IMG/VR virus record: IMGVR_UViG_3300045115_000290
Span: 1 to 23,883 of that record
Reading direction: 5' to 3' (one strand)
DNA: 23,883 nucleotides
Origin: a virus
Shown: in pieces, positions 1 to 8,966 of the stretch
Layout: every line of letters begins with the position of its first letter
Numbering within the stretch: position 1 is the stretch's first letter
Translations under genes and position numbers: made by a program
Notes under the pieces: generated by a model
What the model saw: only the letters and a program-made list of their open reading frames with translations
Told to the model about the DNA's origin: nothing
Database searches by the model: none

Positions 1-1167
1 CTAGGCGCCGCGGCGCCCCCTCCCCCCAGAAACGGTCTCGACCACACCCCGCAGGTGCTCCGGCGCGTGGTGGCCGTACACGTTCTCGACGATGGCTTCG
101 GTGGTGCCGAGCGCACCCGCGATCAGGCTGAACCTGGCGCCGGCCTGCACCGCCCAGGTCGCGAACGTGTGGCGCAGGATGTGCGGCGTGACCTCGGGTC
201 CTAGCCCGGCCGCCTTTCGCGCGGTGTTCCAGGATCGGCGCAGCTTCAGCACGGGCAGGCCCTGGAACTCGACGACGTGCGTCGCGCTCTGGCGCTGCCA
301 GCGCTCGAGGTGCGCGCGGAGGCGCCGGGATAGCGGGATCGGGGTCCGCCGCTTGGTGCTCTCACCTTCTCCGCTCCCCCGCCGGTAGAGGATGCCGGCC
401 CGGAGGTCGATGGATCCCGCCGTCGGGCTGGGCAGCCACCGTAGCCGCACGATCGCATCGTGCCGGGTACCGGTGTAGAGGCCGATCAGCACGAAGCGGG
501 CGACGTGCCGGGTCTTGCCCTGGTCCTCTCCCGTGCGGCGCCAGATCTCGCGGCCGGTGACCGGGTGCGTACCGATTCGCCGGAAGCCCAGTGCGGCCCA
601 GAGCAGGCGGGCGATCTCCGAGCGGGTCAGCCACCGGTCTCGTGCCGGCGCTTTGTCCGGCAGATGGACCGGTACCGGGTACAGCAGCTTGTGCTCCTTG
701 TGCGCGTAGCCAAGCGCTGCGCTCAGCACCTCGAGCTCGCGCCGCGCGGTCTGCGCACCGACGCGAGGCGCCGTCTCGGGATCCTTGTAGCGGGCCTGCG
801 GCATGGCTGTCCGCCAGCGTACATAGCCTGCGCAGAGGTTCGGCGTGGCGTGCGCCACCATCCGGCCGTCGAAGAACGTGACGAGGTGGGGCATGGCGCT
901 CCACACCACATCGGGGCGCTTGGTGTTCGCCGCCCGCTCGTCGGCGTAGAGGGTCAGGACGTCCGAGATGAGGACCCGAGCCGGATCACCTCGGCCGAAG
1001 TCCGGCTTGTGCTTGCGCGCGAGGTATTCCTGCAGCGCTCCTTCAGCCGCTTCGCGCTCTCCATGGCGGCGGCCCGTGCTGATCTCGACGCCGCCGGTAT
1101 CGCGGACGACCCACCGATCATCCCGCTTGCGGTAGTAGAGGCGGGCGCCTTTGGCTGGACGTGGCAT
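1..1167 (-). CDS. int: Tyrosine recombinase (phage integrase)
   Basis: Site-specific recombinase that would integrate and excise the prophage by Arg/Lys/His/Tyr chemistry. At 388 aa it has normal phage integrase length. An N-terminal core-binding region spans about residues 60-165. Catalytic residues read in order: Arg235 in TGTRHDAI, Lys272 in STKRRTPIPL, His329 and Arg332 in HILRHTFATW, and the nucleophile Tyr364 in VYGHHAPEH. The position usually filled by His after 'LG' is Thr355, which I recall as tolerated in related phage integrases of this host group. The ATG at 1165-1167 lies inside the upstream xis-like gene, so the two overlap by 214 nt. The stop codon occupies bases 1-3 of the window, so the expected attachment site just beyond is not visible. 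It is the last gene of the leftward operon. Confidence 0.96.
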   Translation of the reverse strand: MPRPAKGARLYYRKRDDRWVVRDTGGVEISTGRRHGEREAAEGALQEYLARKHKPDFGRGDPARVLISDVLTLYADERAANTKRPDVVWSAMPHLVTFFDGRMVAHATPNLCAGYVRWRTAMPQARYKDPETAPRVGAQTARRELEVLSAALGYAHKEHKLLYPVPVHLPDKAPARDRWLTRSEIARLLWAALGFRRIGTHPVTGREIWRRTGEDQGKTRHVARFVLIGLYTGTRHDAIVRLRWLPSPTAGSIDLRAGILYRRGSGEGESTKRRTPIPLSRRLRAHLERWQRQSATHVVEFQGLPVLKLRRSWNTARKAAGLGPEVTPHILRHTFATWAVQAGARFSLIAGALGTTEAIVENVYGHHAPEHLRGVVETVSGGRGRRGA

Positions 1168-2341: not shown

Positions 2342-2621
2342 TCAGGCGCTCTCGGGCAGGCGGAAGCCGTGGCGGCGGGCGAGGGTATCGGTGAGACGGG
2401 GCGCGCAGGATGGTGCGGGCGGCGGCGGCCCAGGAGCCGTGCATGGCGGGCGGATGCGCGAAGCCGCCGGCTTGGAGGGCGCGGTGCATCGCGGCCTCGG
2501 CGAGGATGGCGGAGGCGTCTTGGCGGGCGGTGCGGGCCGGGTGGTCGCCGCGGGCGGGGTAGCCCACGACCGTGACGGCGTGGGCGAGAACCGCGGCGTG
2601 GCGGCGGGCGCGGGCGCTCAC
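2342..2621 (-). pseudogene. Small hypothetical gene with an apparent +1 frameshift
   Basis: Not recognised. A GTG start at 2619-2621 overlaps the stop of the upstream 40-aa gene (GTGA) and opens a frame with gene-like composition (VSARARRHAAVLAHAVTV, later GSWAAAARTILRA). That frame then runs on without a stop through three downstream genes, with Pro/Arg-rich shadow-like sequence. A different frame supplies a sensible ending, LTDTLARRHGFRLPESA, with a stop at 2342-2344 just before the next gene. Dropping one base from the run of four G at 2398-2401 joins the two halves into a 92-aa protein. Either the gene is genuinely broken or the base is a sequencing error. Confidence 0.6.
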
Positions 2622-2740
2622 AGGCCGCCTCGGGTGGCCAGCAGGGCCAGTACCAAAGCGGCAACCCACGCGGCGAAGACGAACCAGCAGAGGTCGCAGC
2701 GCTCGCGCGTCGGGTGAGAGAAGCCGCGCTCGGCACTCAC
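2618..2740 (-). CDS. 40-aa single-pass membrane protein
   Basis: A very short gene found by overlap logic. Its GTG start (2738-2740) shares bases with the TGA of the upstream gene, and its TGA shares bases with the GTG of the next. The product begins with a hydrophilic stretch containing a C-x2-C pair (RERCDLCW), followed by a hydrophobic helix (FVFAAWVAALVLALLA) and a short RGGL tail. It could be a small inner-membrane protein. Nothing indicates a holin function, and the location in the integration operon argues against lysis. Function unknown. Confidence 0.6.
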   Translation of the reverse strand: MSAERGFSHPTRERCDLCWFVFAAWVAALVLALLATRGGL

Positions 2741-2973
2741 AGCACGCTCCACACGAGCCGGCCCGCGGAGCCGAGATAGGTCAGCGCGAAGGTGGCGGTG
2801 ACGGCGAACCTGACCCAGCCGGCGATAGCGGCACGGCGGCGAGCGGCCGCGAGGGCGGCGGGCGGGTAGCTCGCCGGGACGACCAGCAGGCCGTCAGCGG
2901 TGCGGTGGGAGGGGAAGGATGCGCGGTGCACGGTGGGCTCCATCGCGGCGGGGCGATGGATATTATTCTGCAT
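2737..2973 (-). CDS. Hypothetical protein with one C-terminal membrane helix; first gene of the int operon
   Basis: A 78-aa protein not recognised by family. After a hydrophilic N-terminus and an Arg/Ala-rich stretch (LAAARRRAAI) it has one hydrophobic helix near the end (VRFAVTATFALTYLG). The start is uncertain. The ATG at 2971-2973 lies inside an operator and directly behind a TATAAT, which would imply a leaderless transcript. The ATG at 2941-2943 (MEPTVHRASF) gives a 68-aa product and fits a -10 at 2964-2969 better. The gene ends in a 4-nt overlap with the 40-aa gene, so it heads the leftward operon that ends in int. Confidence 0.6.
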   Translation of the reverse strand: MQNNIHRPAAMEPTVHRASFPSHRTADGLLVVPASYPPAALAAARRRAAIAGWVRFAVTATFALTYLGSAGRLVWSVL

Positions 2974-3025
2974 TACGCAGATTATATGTCAACTGCGCTT
3001 CGCATATTATTCTGCATAACGCTGA
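2961..3025 (-). promoter_or_regulatory. Leftward promoter of the int operon with two repressor-type operators
   Basis: On the minus strand TTGACA (2987-2992) stands 17 nt from AGAATA (2964-2969), with a TATAAT at 2981-2986 as an alternative -10. Two inverted repeats cover it: TCTGC-attac-GCAGA at 2967-2981 and TCTGC-ataac-GCTGA at 3011-3025, each preceded by ATTAT. The same motif occurs at the repressor/Cro intergenic region, so the lysogenic repressor or the Cro-like protein probably controls integration and excision genes as well. Confidence 0.7.
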
Positions 3026-3049
3026 CGTGTGGGCGCTTGGTGCCGCCCA

Positions 3050-3077
3050 TGATAAAGCCCCGCGCGAGGGCGGGGCT
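3050..3077 (-). terminator. Rho-independent terminator of the protease cassette
   Basis: On the minus strand an 8-bp perfect stem (AGCCCCGC / GCGGGGCT, 3056-3063 with 3070-3077) with a 6-nt loop is followed by TTTATC. It lies 23 nt beyond the stop of the 85-aa gene, so it would end the leftward repressor-protease transcript before the int promoter. Confidence 0.8.
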
Positions 3078-3100
3078 GCGACGGGAGGTTTGTTTTCGGC

Positions 3101-3358
3101 CTACTGCCCAATCGGGCTCGGCCGCTGAGTGCTGGCAGTCGCACGCTTCTTCACTGATCGGATGCCGCCCGTCTTGCGAACGGCGATCGGGAAGCCCAGG
3201 TACCCCGAGCGTAGCTTTGTCAGCTCGCTGTGCCGCTCGGACCGCACATAAACATACAGGGTGGGCGCTCCGTCTCGCGCACCCACGCCGGTTGAAACAT
3301 ACCATTTGCGGCCGCGAAGCTCGGTATCAAGGAGCTTGGCCGCCCGGTCTGGCGTCAT
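3101..3358 (-). CDS. 85-aa protein resembling the N-terminal domain of the adjacent protease
   Basis: Not a family I can name. The start codon lies one base after the stop of the protease gene, so the two are surely co-transcribed. Residues about 20-68 (VSTGVGARDGAPTLYVYV, then GFPIAVRKTGGI) line up by eye with protease residues about 56-106 (VGFSEGEDGPTVHIYL, then GVRVRAHRMGPI). Both keep G-x-DG-x-PT, a Y-[VL] strand, a later 'G-x-[PR]-[IV]' and a closing 'G-x-I'. This suggests a free copy of the protease's accessory domain, which could act as inhibitor, substrate or sensor; that is inference. The C-terminus is basic and Ser/Thr-rich. A terminator follows 23 nt downstream. Confidence 0.75.
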   Translation of the reverse strand: MTPDRAAKLLDTELRGRKWYVSTGVGARDGAPTLYVYVRSERHSELTKLRSGYLGFPIAVRKTGGIRSVKKRATASTQRPSPIGQ

Positions 3359-3359
3359 A

Positions 3360-4445
3360 TCAAACCCCGTGTCCGCTCACGAGCGAGAGTCCTCCGAACG
3401 AACGAGCAATGCAAGCCATCGGTATCATCCACGCATACTCACCAGTCCGGTTTGCAGCGAACACCAGCCCAACGGCGTGCTTCCCGTCGTCCGTGACAAC
3501 CAAGCTGCCCGAGTCCCCTGGCAACGCGAATGGCTCACCATTTGCCGCGGCAATGGTCCATACGTCCTGGAACCAAACAACACCTTTGAAATGCTTGGCC
3601 GTATAAGACACCGGGGTCGGAGTCGATACTTTAGCTTCGACTTCTCCAAACTTCAAATGCGTCGTTCGGCCAAACTTCATGACTGCCATGCCGGGTTCCG
3701 GTTCGATAGAAGACGCTGGTGTATCGTAGCCATCGGCGGCATCGCCTTGCCAAGAGCTCACAACTCGATGATCCACGACCCTGGCAAGTGCCAAATCAGC
3801 ATCACATGGATTGACGAAATTCGGATCTCCGCTCCTCATTTCGTGAATATCCCAGTGCCGTCCAATCTCACCAGGCGCGCGGATACCGGCCCTCCCATCA
3901 GTCGCACCTGGCGACAGGATTGGGACGTCACGGGGCACGTGGTTGCATCCGGCGAATACATGGTTGTTTGACAACAAATACAATTCATTATCTCTACTTC
4001 GCCTGACTATCGCGCCAAATGTGCCAACAGAAGACTCAGTTGTAGGGCCGCATGAGCTTCCGCAACAAACTCGGCCATTGCGCTCAAATAAATGACCAAA
4101 GTTGGTCGCAGTACCAGCCGCGTCAGGCTTCACATTGATTGGACCCATCCGATGCGCTCTGACACGCACGCCATCAATCTCATCTGGGAGAGAACGAATT
4201 AGAGCGTTCGTACCGCGCGTGAGATAGATGTGCACCGTTGGGCCATCCTCGCCCTCCGAAAAGCCTACCGACTGAACTGATATATTGCCGAATCCGTCCA
4301 GTTCATCGTGGCTAATTGCCACTGCGCTTGTTGACGCAGCCGACACAAGCCTTCGCACCTCGACCGGACCAACAGTGGCGTTGTACTTTCCATCGCGGAG
4401 AAATTCATAAGCTAAGCGCTTTGCAACCAACTCGGCCCCAGACAT
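3360..4445 (-). CDS. Trypsin-like serine protease (prophage cargo gene)
   Basis: A 361-aa chymotrypsin-fold peptidase. The catalytic triad can be read: His162 in LLSNNHVFAG, Asp215 in NPCDADLALA and Ser312 in ALPGDSGSLVVT. A 'KFGRTTHLKFGEV' segment (about 257-269) and 'VGTFGAIVRR' (140-149) match what I recall of a NAL1-like group of bacterial trypsin-like proteases. Residues 1-125 form a separate N-terminal domain resembling the downstream 85-aa protein, followed by a Cys cluster (VCCGSSCG, 127-133). There is no signal peptide, so it should act in the cytoplasm. Base composition is visibly more A/T-rich than the flanking genes and codon choice is looser, signs of separate acquisition. It lies 80 nt behind the repressor gene in the same orientation, so it is probably expressed in the lysogen. 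Substrate unknown. Confidence 0.88.
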   Translation of the reverse strand: MSGAELVAKRLAYEFLRDGKYNATVGPVEVRRLVSAASTSAVAISHDELDGFGNISVQSVGFSEGEDGPTVHIYLTRGTNALIRSLPDEIDGVRVRAHRMGPINVKPDAAGTATNFGHLFERNGRVCCGSSCGPTTESSVGTFGAIVRRSRDNELYLLSNNHVFAGCNHVPRDVPILSPGATDGRAGIRAPGEIGRHWDIHEMRSGDPNFVNPCDADLALARVVDHRVVSSWQGDAADGYDTPASSIEPEPGMAVMKFGRTTHLKFGEVEAKVSTPTPVSYTAKHFKGVVWFQDVWTIAAANGEPFALPGDSGSLVVTDDGKHAVGLVFAANRTGEYAWMIPMACIARSFGGLSLVSGHGV

Positions 4446-4525
4446 TTCCTAACGTCCCATTGTAAGTTGTTATTGCAACGTCTCGACTGCGGATCCTTCG
4501 GCCTGCGCGGCGCACGCCTCGCGGC
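4446..4525 (-). promoter_or_regulatory. Spacer between repressor and protease, possible weak promoter
   Basis: Eighty bases separate the repressor stop from the protease start. On the minus strand a TACAAT lies about 15 nt before the ATG, with no good -35 at the proper distance, and AGGAAATG supplies a ribosome binding site. There is no hairpin with a T-run, so read-through from the repressor promoter is the simplest source of transcription. Confidence 0.35.
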
Positions 4526-5374
4526 TCACTCCGTTGTCAGCCGGCCGAGGTAGCGGCCGGTAATCGTGATCTCGTCCAGCGTCCGGTCCTCGGGCGTGTG
4601 CTTCGGATTGTCGGAGATTAGGCGCACCCTCACCGGCTCTTGACCTCGCGCCGACGAGATCTCTAGCCTCTTGAGGATCACACCGCCCAGCGCATCCGCG
4701 AGGGCGTAGATGCCGGGCGGCGAGGGCACACGATGCCCGACATCGACGAACACGATGTCGCCGTCGTGGATCTTCGGCTCCATGGAATCACCCATCGCCT
4801 CGAAGCAACGCACCCGATGAGCCGGAACACGGAATCGCCCACGAACCACATCAGCCGGCAGGCGCCACCAATCTTTCACACCCTCAGCGGCGTAGCTGTT
4901 GCCGTCCGGGTTCATCAGGTCGGTGACATGGGTCATGCCGCCCGGGCCCATGCCGATCGCAACATCGGCCTGCAGGATCGCGTCCTGCGGCAGTCTGCCG
5001 ACGTCGCGCCCCATCGTGCCCTCGACCATCCGGGGCTCCAGCTCGACCTGGTCGAGAGCATCGGGATCGAAGCTGCCGATGAGAGGTTTGCGCTGCCCCT
5101 GCTTGTTCACCTGCGTCTTGTAGACTGGTTTCAGATCCGGCTCGGGACCCTGTCCATAAAGGATCCACACTACAGGGACGCCGAAAAACTTGGCGTATCG
5201 CTGAGCATCTGCCTCATCGAAGCCACGAGTGCCCGCCTCATGACCTGAGTATGTCCCGTAGGGAATGTCCATCGCCTCAGCGGCAGCCTTAGCGAAGCGA
5301 TAGCGGCGCTCCCGCGCCCGCTTGAGGCGCGCGTGCTTGTCGTCGATCGGATCCTCAGCTGCGGGCGCGCTCAT
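4526..5374 (-). CDS. Lysogenic repressor, XRE HTH plus S24 (LexA-like) peptidase domain
   Basis: A 282-aa CI-type repressor. An N-terminal HTH (about 12-70: RLKRARERRYRFAKAAAEAMDIPYGTYSGHEAG, then DEADAQRYAKFFGV) is followed by a linker and a C-terminal S24 domain. That domain has Ser197 in GDSMEPKIHDGD and the partner Lys235 in GGVILKRLEI, the dyad of self-cleaving repressors. SOS/RecA-stimulated induction is therefore likely. The start at 5372-5374 was chosen because the HTH begins there and the upstream extension runs through the operators. A -10-like CATAAT sits six bases before this ATG, so the mRNA may be leaderless, as is known for lambda cI from PRM. It binds, by inference, the TCTGC/GCAGA operators beside it. 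Confidence 0.93.
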   Translation of the reverse strand: MSAPAAEDPIDDKHARLKRARERRYRFAKAAAEAMDIPYGTYSGHEAGTRGFDEADAQRYAKFFGVPVVWILYGQGPEPDLKPVYKTQVNKQGQRKPLIGSFDPDALDQVELEPRMVEGTMGRDVGRLPQDAILQADVAIGMGPGGMTHVTDLMNPDGNSYAAEGVKDWWRLPADVVRGRFRVPAHRVRCFEAMGDSMEPKIHDGDIVFVDVGHRVPSPPGIYALADALGGVILKRLEISSARGQEPVRVRLISDNPKHTPEDRTLDEITITGRYLGRLTTE

Positions 5375-5465
5375 GCCTGCATTATGCAGAGAAACGTTCT
5401 GCAAATCTGCAATCGGCAGGCTTGCCTTTGCCTCTGCGATGTGCAGATTATTCTGCCCATGCAGA
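5375..5465. promoter_or_regulatory. Divergent repressor/Cro operator-promoter region
   Basis: Inverted repeats of one motif fill this region: CCTGC-attat-GCAGA (5376-5390), a TCTGCAA direct pair (5398-5404, 5406-5412), GCAGA-ttat-TCTGC (5443-5456) and TCTGC-ccat-GCAGA (5452-5465), the last spanning the Cro-like start codon. Rightward promoter: TTGCCT (5422-5427), 17 nt, AGATTA (5445-5450). Leftward -10: CATAAT (5381-5386 on the minus strand). Both -10 boxes lie inside operators, giving mutually exclusive control. Confidence 0.8.
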
Positions 5466-5800
5466 ACTTCAGCGATGTCATCGACCGCTTCGGATACGCT
5501 GGGATGGCTGCCCTCCTGGCCAAGCCGCCCGGGACGGTCAGCTCCTGGAAGACGCGGAACCTGATTCCGCCGGAGTTCTGGGACGCGCTCGTTCAAGCGG
5601 CACCCGCCAGCAACGTCCACGGGCTCACGCACCAGCTGCTCGCGCGGTTCGCCGCTGAGCGGCGAGTCGCTTCACAGGCGCCAGGGGCCGACGAGGTGCG
5701 AGCAACTGGGGGCGATAGCCCGGCCAGCCTGGAGGCCGAGGTTCCGATCGCCACACACTGCATCGAATTCGTCGGCTTCAGCGAAGGCCAATCTCGATGA
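5459..5800 (+). CDS. Cro-like HTH regulator
   Basis: A 113-aa protein divergent from the repressor. Residues 3-45 (FSDVIDRFGYAGMAALLAKP, then GTVSSWKTRN, then IPPEFWDALVQAA) match the compact HTH pattern of Cro/YdaS-type phage proteins that recognise repressor operators. The ATG at 5459 was chosen because the HTH starts there. There is no Shine-Dalgarno, the -10 box ends eight bases upstream and an operator covers the start codon, so translation may be leaderless and autoregulated. The 50-residue tail (ARFAAERRVASQAPGADE onward) is low-complexity and unlike known Cro proteins. Its end overlaps a convergent minus-strand gene by 23 nt. Confidence 0.85.
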   Translation: MQNFSDVIDRFGYAGMAALLAKPPGTVSSWKTRNLIPPEFWDALVQAAPASNVHGLTHQLLARFAAERRVASQAPGADEVRATGGDSPASLEAEVPIATHCIEFVGFSEGQSR

Positions 5801-6035
5801 TCTCGTCGAGTCGCGCCTTCGCCTTCGTGCGGACGGTCTCCTCGTGGCCCTTTGCGACACGAAGCGGCACTCGGTCGAGGCCATCGTGTCCGACGCTGTG
5901 CCAGCGCGCGCGCACCTCGGCCGGATCCTGCCCCGCCGCTCGCGACAGCGCCGCGATCCGCCTGAGCGCCATCAACAGCACCTGCTGCTGGGCCGCCTGC
6001 TCGGCGATGATGTCGTCGAAGTCGCCCGGACGCAT
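5778..6035 (-). CDS. Hypothetical protein (85 aa), convergent with the Cro-like gene
   Basis: Not recognised. The 85-aa product is charged and helical-looking (DDIIAEQAAQQQVLLMALRR, then RTKAKARLDEIIEIGLR) with no Cys motif or membrane helix. An excellent ribosome binding site (GGCGGAGGA) precedes the ATG at 6033-6035, which is why the longer upstream extension was not used. It is transcribed against the rightward early genes and overlaps the last 23 nt of the Cro-like gene, so early transcription would run antisense through it. Its promoter must lie in 6036-6167, the 132-bp A/T-richer spacer it shares with the next gene. Confidence 0.7.
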   Translation of the reverse strand: MRPGDFDDIIAEQAAQQQVLLMALRRIAALSRAAGQDPAEVRARWHSVGHDGLDRVPLRVAKGHEETVRTKAKARLDEIIEIGLR

Positions 6036-6167
6036 CGCGCAGTCCTCCGCCAAAATACGGCAAGAGAATGTAAGCGTGACCGCAGCTTTCGTCCTTATCA
6101 AAAGGCATGCTCTAGCGCCTTTTCTTCTGTTTCCTGCGGCTAATCTCGACGAGACGGAGATGTTCGC

Positions 6168-6398
6168 ATGACGCCGGATACCTGCACCGAGACGGGCATC
6201 GAGAAGATCGTGCACGGGCGGCCGGTCGAGGCCTTCGCCATCTCGGATGGCGACAGTGTCGTGCTTGGCGTGGTGCGCACCGGCCGGAACGGCGACCACT
6301 TCAAGCTGTCGCTCGCGCTCACCCGGGAGGAGGCGCGGCACTTCCTAGAGGTCGCGCGCGCGGCCGTGGACGCCTCGGAGCGGGGAGAAGCGGCATGA
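6168..6398 (+). CDS. Hypothetical protein (76 aa)
   Basis: Not recognised. A 76-aa protein with a beta-rich first half (KIVHGRPVEAFAISDGDSVVLGVVRTG) and a helical second half (LTREEARHFLEVARAAVDASERG). ACGGAG lies ten bases before the ATG. Its TGA overlaps the ATG of the following 51-aa gene, indicating a small operon. The fold pattern would suit a small protein-protein or nucleic acid-binding module, but nothing identifies it. Confidence 0.7.
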   Translation: MTPDTCTETGIEKIVHGRPVEAFAISDGDSVVLGVVRTGRNGDHFKLSLALTREEARHFLEVARAAVDASERGEAA

Positions 6399-6550
6399 TC
6401 CGCGCCCTCCTCGCCTGGCTGGACACGTCAGCGGCCGCTGAGTCGCGCAGGCCCATCGTTGCCGCTCTTGACCTGTCGCGTGGCGGCATCGGCGTCGCGT
6501 TCGGCGTGGCCGATGCGCCGTGTACTGCTTTCGTCACCAGGAGGCTGTGA
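6395..6550 (+). CDS. Small hypothetical protein (51 aa)
   Basis: A short gene in 4-nt overlap (ATGA) with the preceding one and with GGGGAGAAG as ribosome binding site. The product begins MIRALLAWLDTSAAAES and continues PIVAALDLSRGGIGVAFGV, moderately hydrophobic but without a clear membrane helix. It ends just before a convergent minus-strand gene. No function can be proposed. Confidence 0.5.
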   Translation: MIRALLAWLDTSAAAESRRPIVAALDLSRGGIGVAFGVADAPCTAFVTRRL

Positions 6551-6564
6551 TGGTCATCCTGGCC

Positions 6565-6876
6565 TCAGCTCTTCGTCGCATACTTGGCGGAAGCCAGATC
6601 GTGCACGTACTCGGCACGGGTCTGTGGTCGGTTCGGCTTCCCCGTGGCTTTGAGCCAAGCCTTGAATTCCTCGGACTTGATCTCAATCCACTCAATGTTT
6701 CTGCCAGCCTTGGCCGCTTCCACGGTCGCTATATCAGCAAAAGCGCGCCACTCGTCGTAAGTGTCCTCCATATCATTCTCGTCCGGCTCAATGGCCTTCA
6801 CGCGCGGGTAGTCTTCTCGGCTGTACCACGAGATTGCGACCAGGACCGGCTCTTTCGGTCTCGGCATTTTCGGCAT
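6565..6876 (-). CDS. Hypothetical protein (103 aa), minus-strand accessory gene
   Basis: A clearly protein-like sequence of 103 aa, richer in Lys, Glu, Ile and Tyr than its neighbours and encoded by more A/T-rich DNA. It resembles, from memory, small Rhizobiales hypotheticals sharing an S/R-E-DYPR motif, a central DTYDEW and a late F-x2-W (here SREDYPRV, DTYDEWRAFA, EEFKAWL). I know of no assigned function. Start could be Met1 (6876) or Met4 (6867). The gene opposes the surrounding rightward early genes, which with its base composition suggests an independently acquired cargo gene. Confidence 0.8.
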   Translation of the reverse strand: MPKMPRPKEPVLVAISWYSREDYPRVKAIEPDENDMEDTYDEWRAFADIATVEAAKAGRNIEWIEIKSEEFKAWLKATGKPNRPQTRAEYVHDLASAKYATKS

Positions 6877-7690: not shown

Positions 7691-8203
7691 GTGCGGACAA
7701 AAACTTCCACGCGACGCACAATGTTCACGAACGCTGACGCCCAATCCCAGGCGCTGCCCCTCGTGCACGCCCTCTTCCGGGACGCCCACTCGCGGTCCGG
7801 ATCGCGCATGGCCGCCTACGAGCGGACGGCCGAGCAGATCGGTCGCTCGCCGAACTGGGTCCGTAAGCTCATCGGCCGGCGCGCTGACGCTGTCGTCGAG
7901 CACCGTGACTTCCTGAACATCCGCGCCGCCTACGACCGGCTGTGCGCGCGGATCGAGGCTGCAGCAGAACACGAAGAGGCTCGCGTCGACGCACTCAGGA
8001 GGACACGTCATGCCGCGGCTCGTGAGGGCGATCGTTCGGCTGTTCCGGGCGTGGCGCGCACGGCGGGCGGAGGAGAGATCAGCCGCCGGTATGCCGCCGC
8101 GGGAATGGATGCCGCGCCTCTGGGACCGCGAGCGGCGGGAGAGACCGACCACGCCGCGCCGGAGGTGATCTCGCGCACCAGCGATGGGCAGGCCGCATCA
8201 TGA
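7691..8203 (+). CDS. HTH-type small protein, start of the replication cluster
   Basis: A 170-aa ORF with a GTG start behind ACAGGAGA at seven to nine bases. Residues about 25-75 hold a helix-turn-helix-like segment (RMAAYERTAEQIGRSPNWVRKLIGRR) and a helix (FLNIRAAYDRLCARIEAAA), which fits a DNA-binding early phage protein. GC3 is very high up to about residue 100 and then drops, where another gene (8010-8168) with a strong ribosome binding site is embedded in a different frame. The last 65 residues may therefore be a by-product of a missing stop, although the TGA does overlap the ATG of the next gene. Confidence 0.7.
   Translation: MRTKTSTRRTMFTNADAQSQALPLVHALFRDAHSRSGSRMAAYERTAEQIGRSPNWVRKLIGRRADAVVEHRDFLNIRAAYDRLCARIEAAAEHEEARVDALRRTRHAAAREGDRSAVPGVARTAGGGEISRRYAAAGMDAAPLGPRAAGETDHAAPEVISRTSDGQAAS
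8010..8168 (+). CDS. Embedded small basic protein (52 aa)
   Basis: Lies wholly inside the 3' part of the preceding ORF in another frame, yet has the best Shine-Dalgarno of the area: AGGAGG at 7997-8002, seven bases before the ATG. GC3 is higher here in this frame than in the overlapping one. The product is Arg-rich (MPRLVRAIVRLFRAWRAR, later PREWMPRLWDRERRERP), possibly amphipathic at its N-terminus. Not recognised. Either both frames are used or the preceding gene ends in non-functional sequence. Confidence 0.5.
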   Translation: MPRLVRAIVRLFRAWRARRAEERSAAGMPPREWMPRLWDRERRERPTTPRRR

Positions 8204-8625
8204 CGGCCCGCCCCGAGCAGATCTTGCAGACGAAGATCGTCGTGGCGCTGCATCGCCGCTTCGACTGCCGCTGCGTCCATGTGCCGAACGGGGGCGGCCG
8301 CACGAAGCTCGAAGCGCTCGCCCTGCGCGACATGGGCGTGTGGGCCGGCCATCCCGACCTGATCGTCTACGGGCGCGACGGGCGTCTGCTGCTGATCGAG
8401 ATCAAGGATCGCATCCAGGCGCGCGAGCGCGCCGTGGCGCCGGGCGAGCGGCTGACCACGCTGTCGGAGGCGCAGCGCCATGCCGTGCCGGAACTGCGAG
8501 CGCGGGGCTTCGCGGTCGCGGTGGTCGACACCGTGGAGGACGCGGTCGCCGTGGCCGAGGCGGCCGGCTTTGCGCCGCGCACCGCCCGACCGCTCCCCGC
8601 GGCCGAACTGACGACGGGGTTCTGA
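8200..8625 (+). CDS. VRR-NUC domain nuclease
   Basis: A 141-aa stand-alone VRR-NUC (virus-type replication-repair nuclease) protein. Motifs in order: HVPNGGGRTKLEALAL with Glu38, AGHPDLIVY with Asp53, LLLIEIKD with Glu67 and Lys69, and LSEAQRHAV with Gln92. Such phage proteins cleave branched or flap DNA and sit in replication or recombination clusters; Holliday-junction resolution is a likely role. Length is typical of phage versions (about 100-150 aa). The start overlaps the TGA of the upstream ORF (ATGA). Another nuclease is encoded about 1 kb downstream. Confidence 0.9.
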   Translation: MTARPEQILQTKIVVALHRRFDCRCVHVPNGGGRTKLEALALRDMGVWAGHPDLIVYGRDGRLLLIEIKDRIQARERAVAPGERLTTLSEAQRHAVPELRARGFAVAVVDTVEDAVAVAEAAGFAPRTARPLPAAELTTGF

Positions 8626-8627
8626 CG

Positions 8628-8966
8628 ATGGCGCTGATCCCGCTCACGCATGGGCTTAATCGCGAGGGACAAGAGCGTGTTGTCTCGCTCGCTCGCGCGA
8701 CGCACCAGGGTATGGCGCATTTCGCTGGGACTGGCCCGGCCAGCTCGACCTGCCGGGAATGCCGGTTCTGGCAGCACTCCAGCACGTGGCACGCTGCCGG
8801 CGGAAAGCACGGAGGCGCACCCCGACCAGCGCCGTGCCGACGCTACGCAGAACTGATGCGAGAGCGTGGCCGGCCCGTGCCGCACCAAGCGCTGGCCTGC
8901 AAGCATTTCGACGCGGCGGAACGGCCGCAGCCGCTTCAGCGCCCGCGCAGGGAGTTCGAGGCATGA
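8628..8966 (+). CDS. Four-cysteine, probably zinc-binding hypothetical protein
   Basis: A 112-aa protein whose Cys residues (Cys42 and Cys45 in TCRECRFW, Cys70 in PAPCRRY, Cys91 in ACKHF) are spaced like a zinc site. I associate this pattern with small conserved phage proteins of unknown role in replication clusters. The first 35 residues (MALIPLTHGLNREGQERVV) are polar and lack motifs. It begins two bases after the VRR-NUC stop and ends in a 4-nt overlap with the next gene, so it is translationally coupled on both sides. Confidence 0.75.
   Translation: MALIPLTHGLNREGQERVVSLARATHQGMAHFAGTGPASSTCRECRFWQHSSTWHAAGGKHGGAPRPAPCRRYAELMRERGRPVPHQALACKHFDAAERPQPLQRPRREFEA

Follow-up and report, generated by a model that had tools for sequence, protein, structure and literature searches.

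Most of what is known about the NAL1 family of proteases comes from plants; in the sources that we searched, bacterial and phage members are nearly undescribed, and we found nothing on bacterial NAL1 homologues in the open PMC literature. In plants, NAL1 affects leaf shape, yield and flowering time, and we know of no bacterial counterpart of the TOPLESS-like corepressor. Among bacterial enzymes, SGPA, SGPB and alpha-lytic protease are of the kind made with pro regions. In temperate phages, the Rex genes of lambda are accessory genes that lie within the immunity region or close to it, and Lit of prophage e14 is a prophage-borne metalloprotease that cuts EF-Tu. Maize NAL1a degrades a TOPLESS-like corepressor (PMC12915138). 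The pro region of alpha-lytic protease guides and catalyses folding and lies across the active site (PMC2829044), and the protease SpeB is encoded beside Spi, a co-transcribed propeptide analogue for which inhibition has been reported (PMC2873492).

Here we analysed a protease gene and its small neighbour, hereafter the partner, in a stretch of viral DNA that we call the window: the 23,883 bases that make up the whole record IMGVR_UViG_3300045115_000290, possibly a phage fragment. The window belongs to a temperate phage, with an integrase (1-1167, minus strand), a repressor and a P4-type primase, and with terminase and portal genes as judged from the open reading frames. The features around the pair are the following.

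3360..4445, minus strand: gene of a NAL1-like serine protease, 361 aa, with an N-terminal NAL1_N-like domain (residues about 46-112) and a catalytic domain (about 125-361)
4110..4310, minus strand: the protease's own NAL1_N-like domain, residues about 46-112, placed by a family N-domain HMM and the structure model
3101..3358, minus strand: partner gene, 85 aa, a free NAL1_N-like domain, separated from the protease stop by one base
4526..5632, minus strand: phage repressor, HTH plus S24 peptidase (Pfam Peptidase_S24, 1.4e-12; PHROG transcriptional repressor, 1.3e-29)
4459..4486, minus strand: weak promoter-like site TCGAGA-16-TACAAT between repressor and protease, from a consensus scan only
3057..3071, minus strand: weak terminator-like stem-loop 3' of the partner gene, a 5-bp stem followed by TTTATC

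The two reading frames that an earlier note on this DNA had described are there, of 361 and 85 aa with one base in between, and so is their position downstream of the repressor in the same orientation, 80 bp from this S24-type (CI/LexA-like) protein, whose true start probably lies inside the ORF 4526-5632. The terminator that the note had assigned to the cassette is there, at 3071-3057 on the minus strand; we grade it weak because its stem has 5 bp only. The consensus scan of 2500-6600 gave 2 promoter-like sites against 0.8 expected. We regard the pair as a two-gene cargo of a temperate phage in the lysogeny region.

The larger gene encodes an intact serine protease of the NAL1 family, which we would expect to be catalytically active. 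The protein passes the curated cut-off of Pfam Nal1_C just barely (26.9 bits vs 26.1), has a sub-threshold match to Pfam Trypsin_2, and retrieves from the PDB sequences (phmmer) rice NARROW LEAF 1 (NAL1) chains only, at 2e-5. It also matches PHROG 25502 (4.5e-48) and PHROG 20754 (6.3e-18), whose annotations read unknown function and 'protease' only, and tblastn showed no close relatives in annotated phages; the only matches were four weak ones on plasmids. The earlier note had read the catalytic triad as His162, Asp215 and Ser312. The triad is indeed complete, with a different acidic residue: the alignment identifies D217 which, like H162 and S312, is invariant across 37 homologues, whereas D215 is not conserved. 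We found no hydrophobic signal on inspecting the N-terminus, in agreement with the note's claim that a signal peptide is lacking, and the protease is apparently cytoplasmic. The term “trypsin-like” refers to the fold only: Phe stands six residues before the catalytic Ser, and the term therefore does not imply that the enzyme prefers Lys/Arg as trypsin does.

The N-terminal domain of the family follows the pattern NVVGVGxGxK...(A/V)IxVxVxxKxP...IPxxidGxxTDVxEvG, and a family HMM of this domain, built with the window protease included, matches the window protease at E 1.8e-10. The Pfam model PF25608 (NAL1_N) gives no match with the window protease itself; two relatives that align with it across the N-terminal domain pass the cut-off of 27 (L062 with 33.3 bits, L014 with 27.4 bits). 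Used as a genome search, PF25608 matched nothing in 101 Chloroflexota genomes, indicating that it is too narrow for the bacterial members.

The AlphaFold2 model of the protease (pLDDT 81, pTM 0.84) aligns over its whole length, residues 1-361, with residues 92-449 of rice NAL1 (Z 25.4, 290 residues). The next structural neighbours, SGPA/SGPB and alpha-lytic protease, share the fold of the catalytic domain alone (Z 21-22). Rice NAL1 and its plant relatives thus have in common with the window protease the whole-length fold, the Nal1_C match, the N-terminal NAL1_N-like domain and the triad, while the window protein is only about 17% identical to NAL1, is phage-borne and probably bacterial-cytoplasmic, and has a free copy of its N-domain beside it. 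The earlier note could name no system of this make-up. The protease can now be named, as a member of the NAL1 family; for the pair, we found no description in open PMC papers, Pfam, NCBIfam, PHROGs or PADLOC.

The earlier note had seen a resemblance between the partner and protease residues of about 56-106, and profile comparison indicates that this resemblance is homology and not chance. For this, a profile of the partners of the window and its four closest loci (L002, L007, L008 and L135) was compared by hhalign with 43 N-domains of the family. The score was 37.8 (probability 92.6), far above the control of 60 column shuffles (mean 8.8, sd 2.1, maximum 14.6) and the reversed profile (10.7). 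Against the protease N-domains of the same clade the score was 39.0, with a shuffle maximum of 16.5, and partners from other loci scored 66.8 against the same N-domains and 49.8 against the window partner clade. Partner and N-domain share 17% identity in the profile alignment, the N-domain HMM searched against the window partner gives no match, and the kinship becomes visible only via profile-profile comparison and intermediate sequences. The partner matches nothing in Pfam, prodomains included, and nothing in PHROGs, and viral contigs searched with the partner alone returned nothing at first and later only L002.

In the predicted structures, the elements follow one another in the same order. 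The partner model (pLDDT 77.7) has a helix at 3-14, strands at 20-28 and 31-38, a helix at 44-49 and a strand at 58-62, and the N-domain in the protease model has a helix at 46-50, strands at 56-65 and 68-77, a helix at 80-84 and a strand at 93-99. This order, alpha-beta-beta-alpha-beta in both, is compatible with the note's suggestion of a free domain copy. The arrangement is a common one, however, and at this level the models do not single out a relative: the partner aligns with NAL1 95-170 at Z 5.7, where unrelated folds tie, with an alpha-lytic prodomain-like protein at Z 5.8, and with the alpha-lytic pro region (2pro) at Z 5.3 (rmsd 2.2, 55 residues), a value below 8 that KH domains equal. 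Foldseek with the partner model gave no match at E<=0.001 and placed ribosomal S3 KH domains above NAL1. The basic tail of the partner (residues 66-85) is modelled at low confidence and is probably disordered.

Next we examined whether the pairing is found elsewhere. The closest relatives of the window protease are in the phage L002 (62% identity) and in a Rhodospirillales MAG (L007, 64%), followed by a Chloroflexi MAG (L008, 44%) and a viral contig (L135, 46%, frameshifted), and in all members of this clade the partner lies at the 3' end of the protease. In L135 the protease is split over several frames (8121-8941), through frameshifts or decay, and the partner frame is open. A protease profile found the family in 12 of 385 genomes from the class of L007 and in 16 of 301 from the phylum of L008; the sample covers these two groups only, and genes at the individual loci were called from open reading frames. 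A free NAL1_N-like copy is adjacent to the protease or fused to its C-terminus in 17 of these 28 genomes, which bears out the pairing proposed in the note, and 11 lack an adjacent partner. Fourteen of the 17 pairings are backed by profile searches that excluded the sequence in question, and three (G286, G400 and G553) rest on position and motif. The partner is mostly downstream (upstream in G098, G082 and G579), with a spacing from stop to start that is commonly -11 to +10 nt.

The reverse search leads back to the protease. A partner profile from another phylum, free of alphaproteobacterial rows, gave nine matches at E<1e-4 in the 385 genomes. A NAL1-like protease lay no more than 300 bp from eight of these, even though just 12 of the genomes carry such a protease at all. 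Likewise, a six-partner profile found only two non-query matches in the 301 Chloroflexota genomes, both adjacent to the protease. Mapped onto a tree of 86 catalytic domains, partner presence takes 11 changes vs 19.6 with shuffled labels, a value that none of 500 shuffles brought as low, and the window clade forms one well-supported group in which all members have the partner. Nearly all of the 62 viral homologues lack a partner next to them, which together with the 11 genomes above indicates that the protease does not always need one. Collectively, the recurrence of the same pair in distant bacteria suggests that the small protein binds and controls the protease.

These observations fit a regulatory pairing, in which the partner is an inhibitor, a sensor or a decoy. 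A copy of the domain encoded beside the protease, often overlapping its stop codon, most simply binds the protease, and the precedents of SpeB-Spi and of the alpha-lytic pro region favour a trans-acting, propeptide-like regulator carried as phage cargo, a reading that we hold at about even confidence. Under this hypothesis, the first gene would produce a NAL1-type serine protease that is active and contains a NAL1_N domain of its own. The second, which would be co-transcribed and, given the one-base gap, is probably translationally coupled, would supply this domain as a separate chain, which would most likely bind the protease in trans and keep the enzyme inactive, and might also aid folding. 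This restraint would end when a trigger removes the free domain or when a substrate competes with it, and the released protease would then cut a small number of specific proteins, perhaps a single one, in the lysogen, where the pair is presumed to be expressed. As in SpeB-Spi, a protease gene has next to it a gene for a free copy or analogue of its own N-terminal part. However, SpeB is a secreted C10 cysteine protease with a removable propeptide and has no homology to the window pair, and inhibition, reported for SpeB-Spi, is something that we infer for the window. In alpha-lytic protease and SGPB, the precursor contains the pro region and loses it by cleavage, whereas the window partner is a separate gene, and its fold match to that region is weak (Z 5.3).

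The main rival comes from the plant proteins. The crystal constructs of NAL1 retain the NAL1_N domain, whereas a classical propeptide is removed, and the function of this domain may instead lie in assembly. The free domain could accordingly be an assembly subunit that exchanges with, or caps, the NAL1_N domain of the protease in an oligomer and sets oligomer size, localisation or substrate specificity, which we consider possible but less likely. Besides the attached domain in the solved structures, the occurrence of this domain at the N-terminus, at the C-terminus and as a free gene speaks for it: one NAL1-like protease (L030 in genome G556, ORF 1378-2460) has the domain at its C-terminus and none at its N-terminus, an exchange of position that we also count in favour of the propeptide-like reading, as it argues for physical association. 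This L030 protein also carries a putative signal peptide. A decoy or sensor, that is, a substrate mimic attacked by other proteases or by phage factors, the loss of which signals infection, would account for the homology between the partner and the domain within the protease, and for the basic, low-confidence tail; this tail is not conserved in L008 and there is no conserved cleavage site, and we find such a role improbable. That the small gene is a neutral, decaying domain duplicate without function is harder still to believe: copies that share 17% identity might be expected of one, whereas the adjacency conserved across phyla speaks strongly against it, as do the presence of the partner in every member of the window clade and its open frame even beside the frameshifted protease of L135.

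A further reading concerns the biological role and is compatible with the propeptide-like regulator: the pair may be a phage-exclusion (abortive infection) module, in which the partner would hold the protease back in the lysogen until a superinfecting phage frees it to cut an essential host or phage protein, in the manner of Lit and EF-Tu. Its location and composition are in favour. Integrase and repressor flank the cassette in both the window and L002, otherwise different phages. Its orientation relative to the repressor is opposite in the two, and the L002 partner has its stop abutting that of the repressor. In L007 the cassette is on a tRNA-bounded island, with a type IIG restriction enzyme on one side and a tRNA-Ala gene on the other. 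The protease gene has a GC content of 54.8% (GC3 53.9%) in a window of 68.4%, and 53-56% in three backgrounds of about 61-68%, as expected of a mobile module. The A/T-richness that the earlier note attributed to the cassette is thus clear for the protease and weaker for the partner gene (GC 64.0%, GC3 73.3%). The cassette resembles Rex as accessory genes by the immunity region and Lit as a prophage-borne protease; it has no sequence match to the Rex families in Pfam or PHROGs, and Lit is a metalloprotease whereas the window encodes a serine protease.

Against exclusion, neither protein matches a PADLOC family at E up to 1, and the copy of L135 adjoins a lysozyme-like gene instead. Nor is there a shared theme in the wider family: of the 87 proteins encoded nearby, at most two share a Pfam family, the neighbours are mostly housekeeping genes, PADLOC matches among them are scattered, the type IIG enzyme of L007 is the sole close defence neighbour, and the viral homologues show no consistent neighbourhood. 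The superinfection-exclusion or abortive-infection role that the earlier note put forward gained no support; we consider it possible, though rather unlikely. The CARD-NLR trypsins of Caulobacter (PMC13236601) differ in architecture.

The conserved free copy offers a direct handle on the role of the NAL1_N domain. If the partner of the preferred reading, a propeptide-like regulator, inhibits the enzyme, the pair would be a serine-protease counterpart of SpeB-Spi that spans distant phyla and is moved by phages, and if the phage version excludes other phages, it would add a protease-based type of exclusion. One may go further and suppose a widespread, undescribed bacterial regulatory or immunity module, a NAL1-type cytoplasmic protease held by its own free N-domain and released by a signal, which temperate phages captured beside the repressor as an exclusion system. 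We regard this wider picture as doubtful; were it true, it would also indicate what the plant NAL1_N domain originally did.

Free NAL1_N-like genes also occur apart from the protease. In three genomes (L148 in G663, L149 in G595 and L179 in G627) such a gene is far from the protease, which is elsewhere in the genome. In a fourth (L161 in G309, C157:11813-12010) the gene comes without a NAL1-like protease and is divergent to a subtilisin-like protease, as judged from sequence; from this single case one may suspect that proteases of more than one type use the domain. On two Rhizobium plasmids (L003 and L004), a partnerless NAL1-like protease adjoins radical SAM and HEXXH peptide-modification genes, as if it matured a modified peptide. 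Other NAL1-like proteases, from IMG/VR phages, are fused to further domains, to a GH25 lysozyme with SH3 in L058 and to SpoIID in L059, and L092 has one within a protein of 1962 aa with a weak fn3 match.

In the window itself, palindromes of the type TTCTGCATTATGCAGA are present at 2966-2982, 3010-3026 and 5375-5391 and are probably operators of the phage repressor. None is directly upstream of the protease. The first two lie either side of the start of a leftward ORF at 2973, and the third is on the repressor/cro side.
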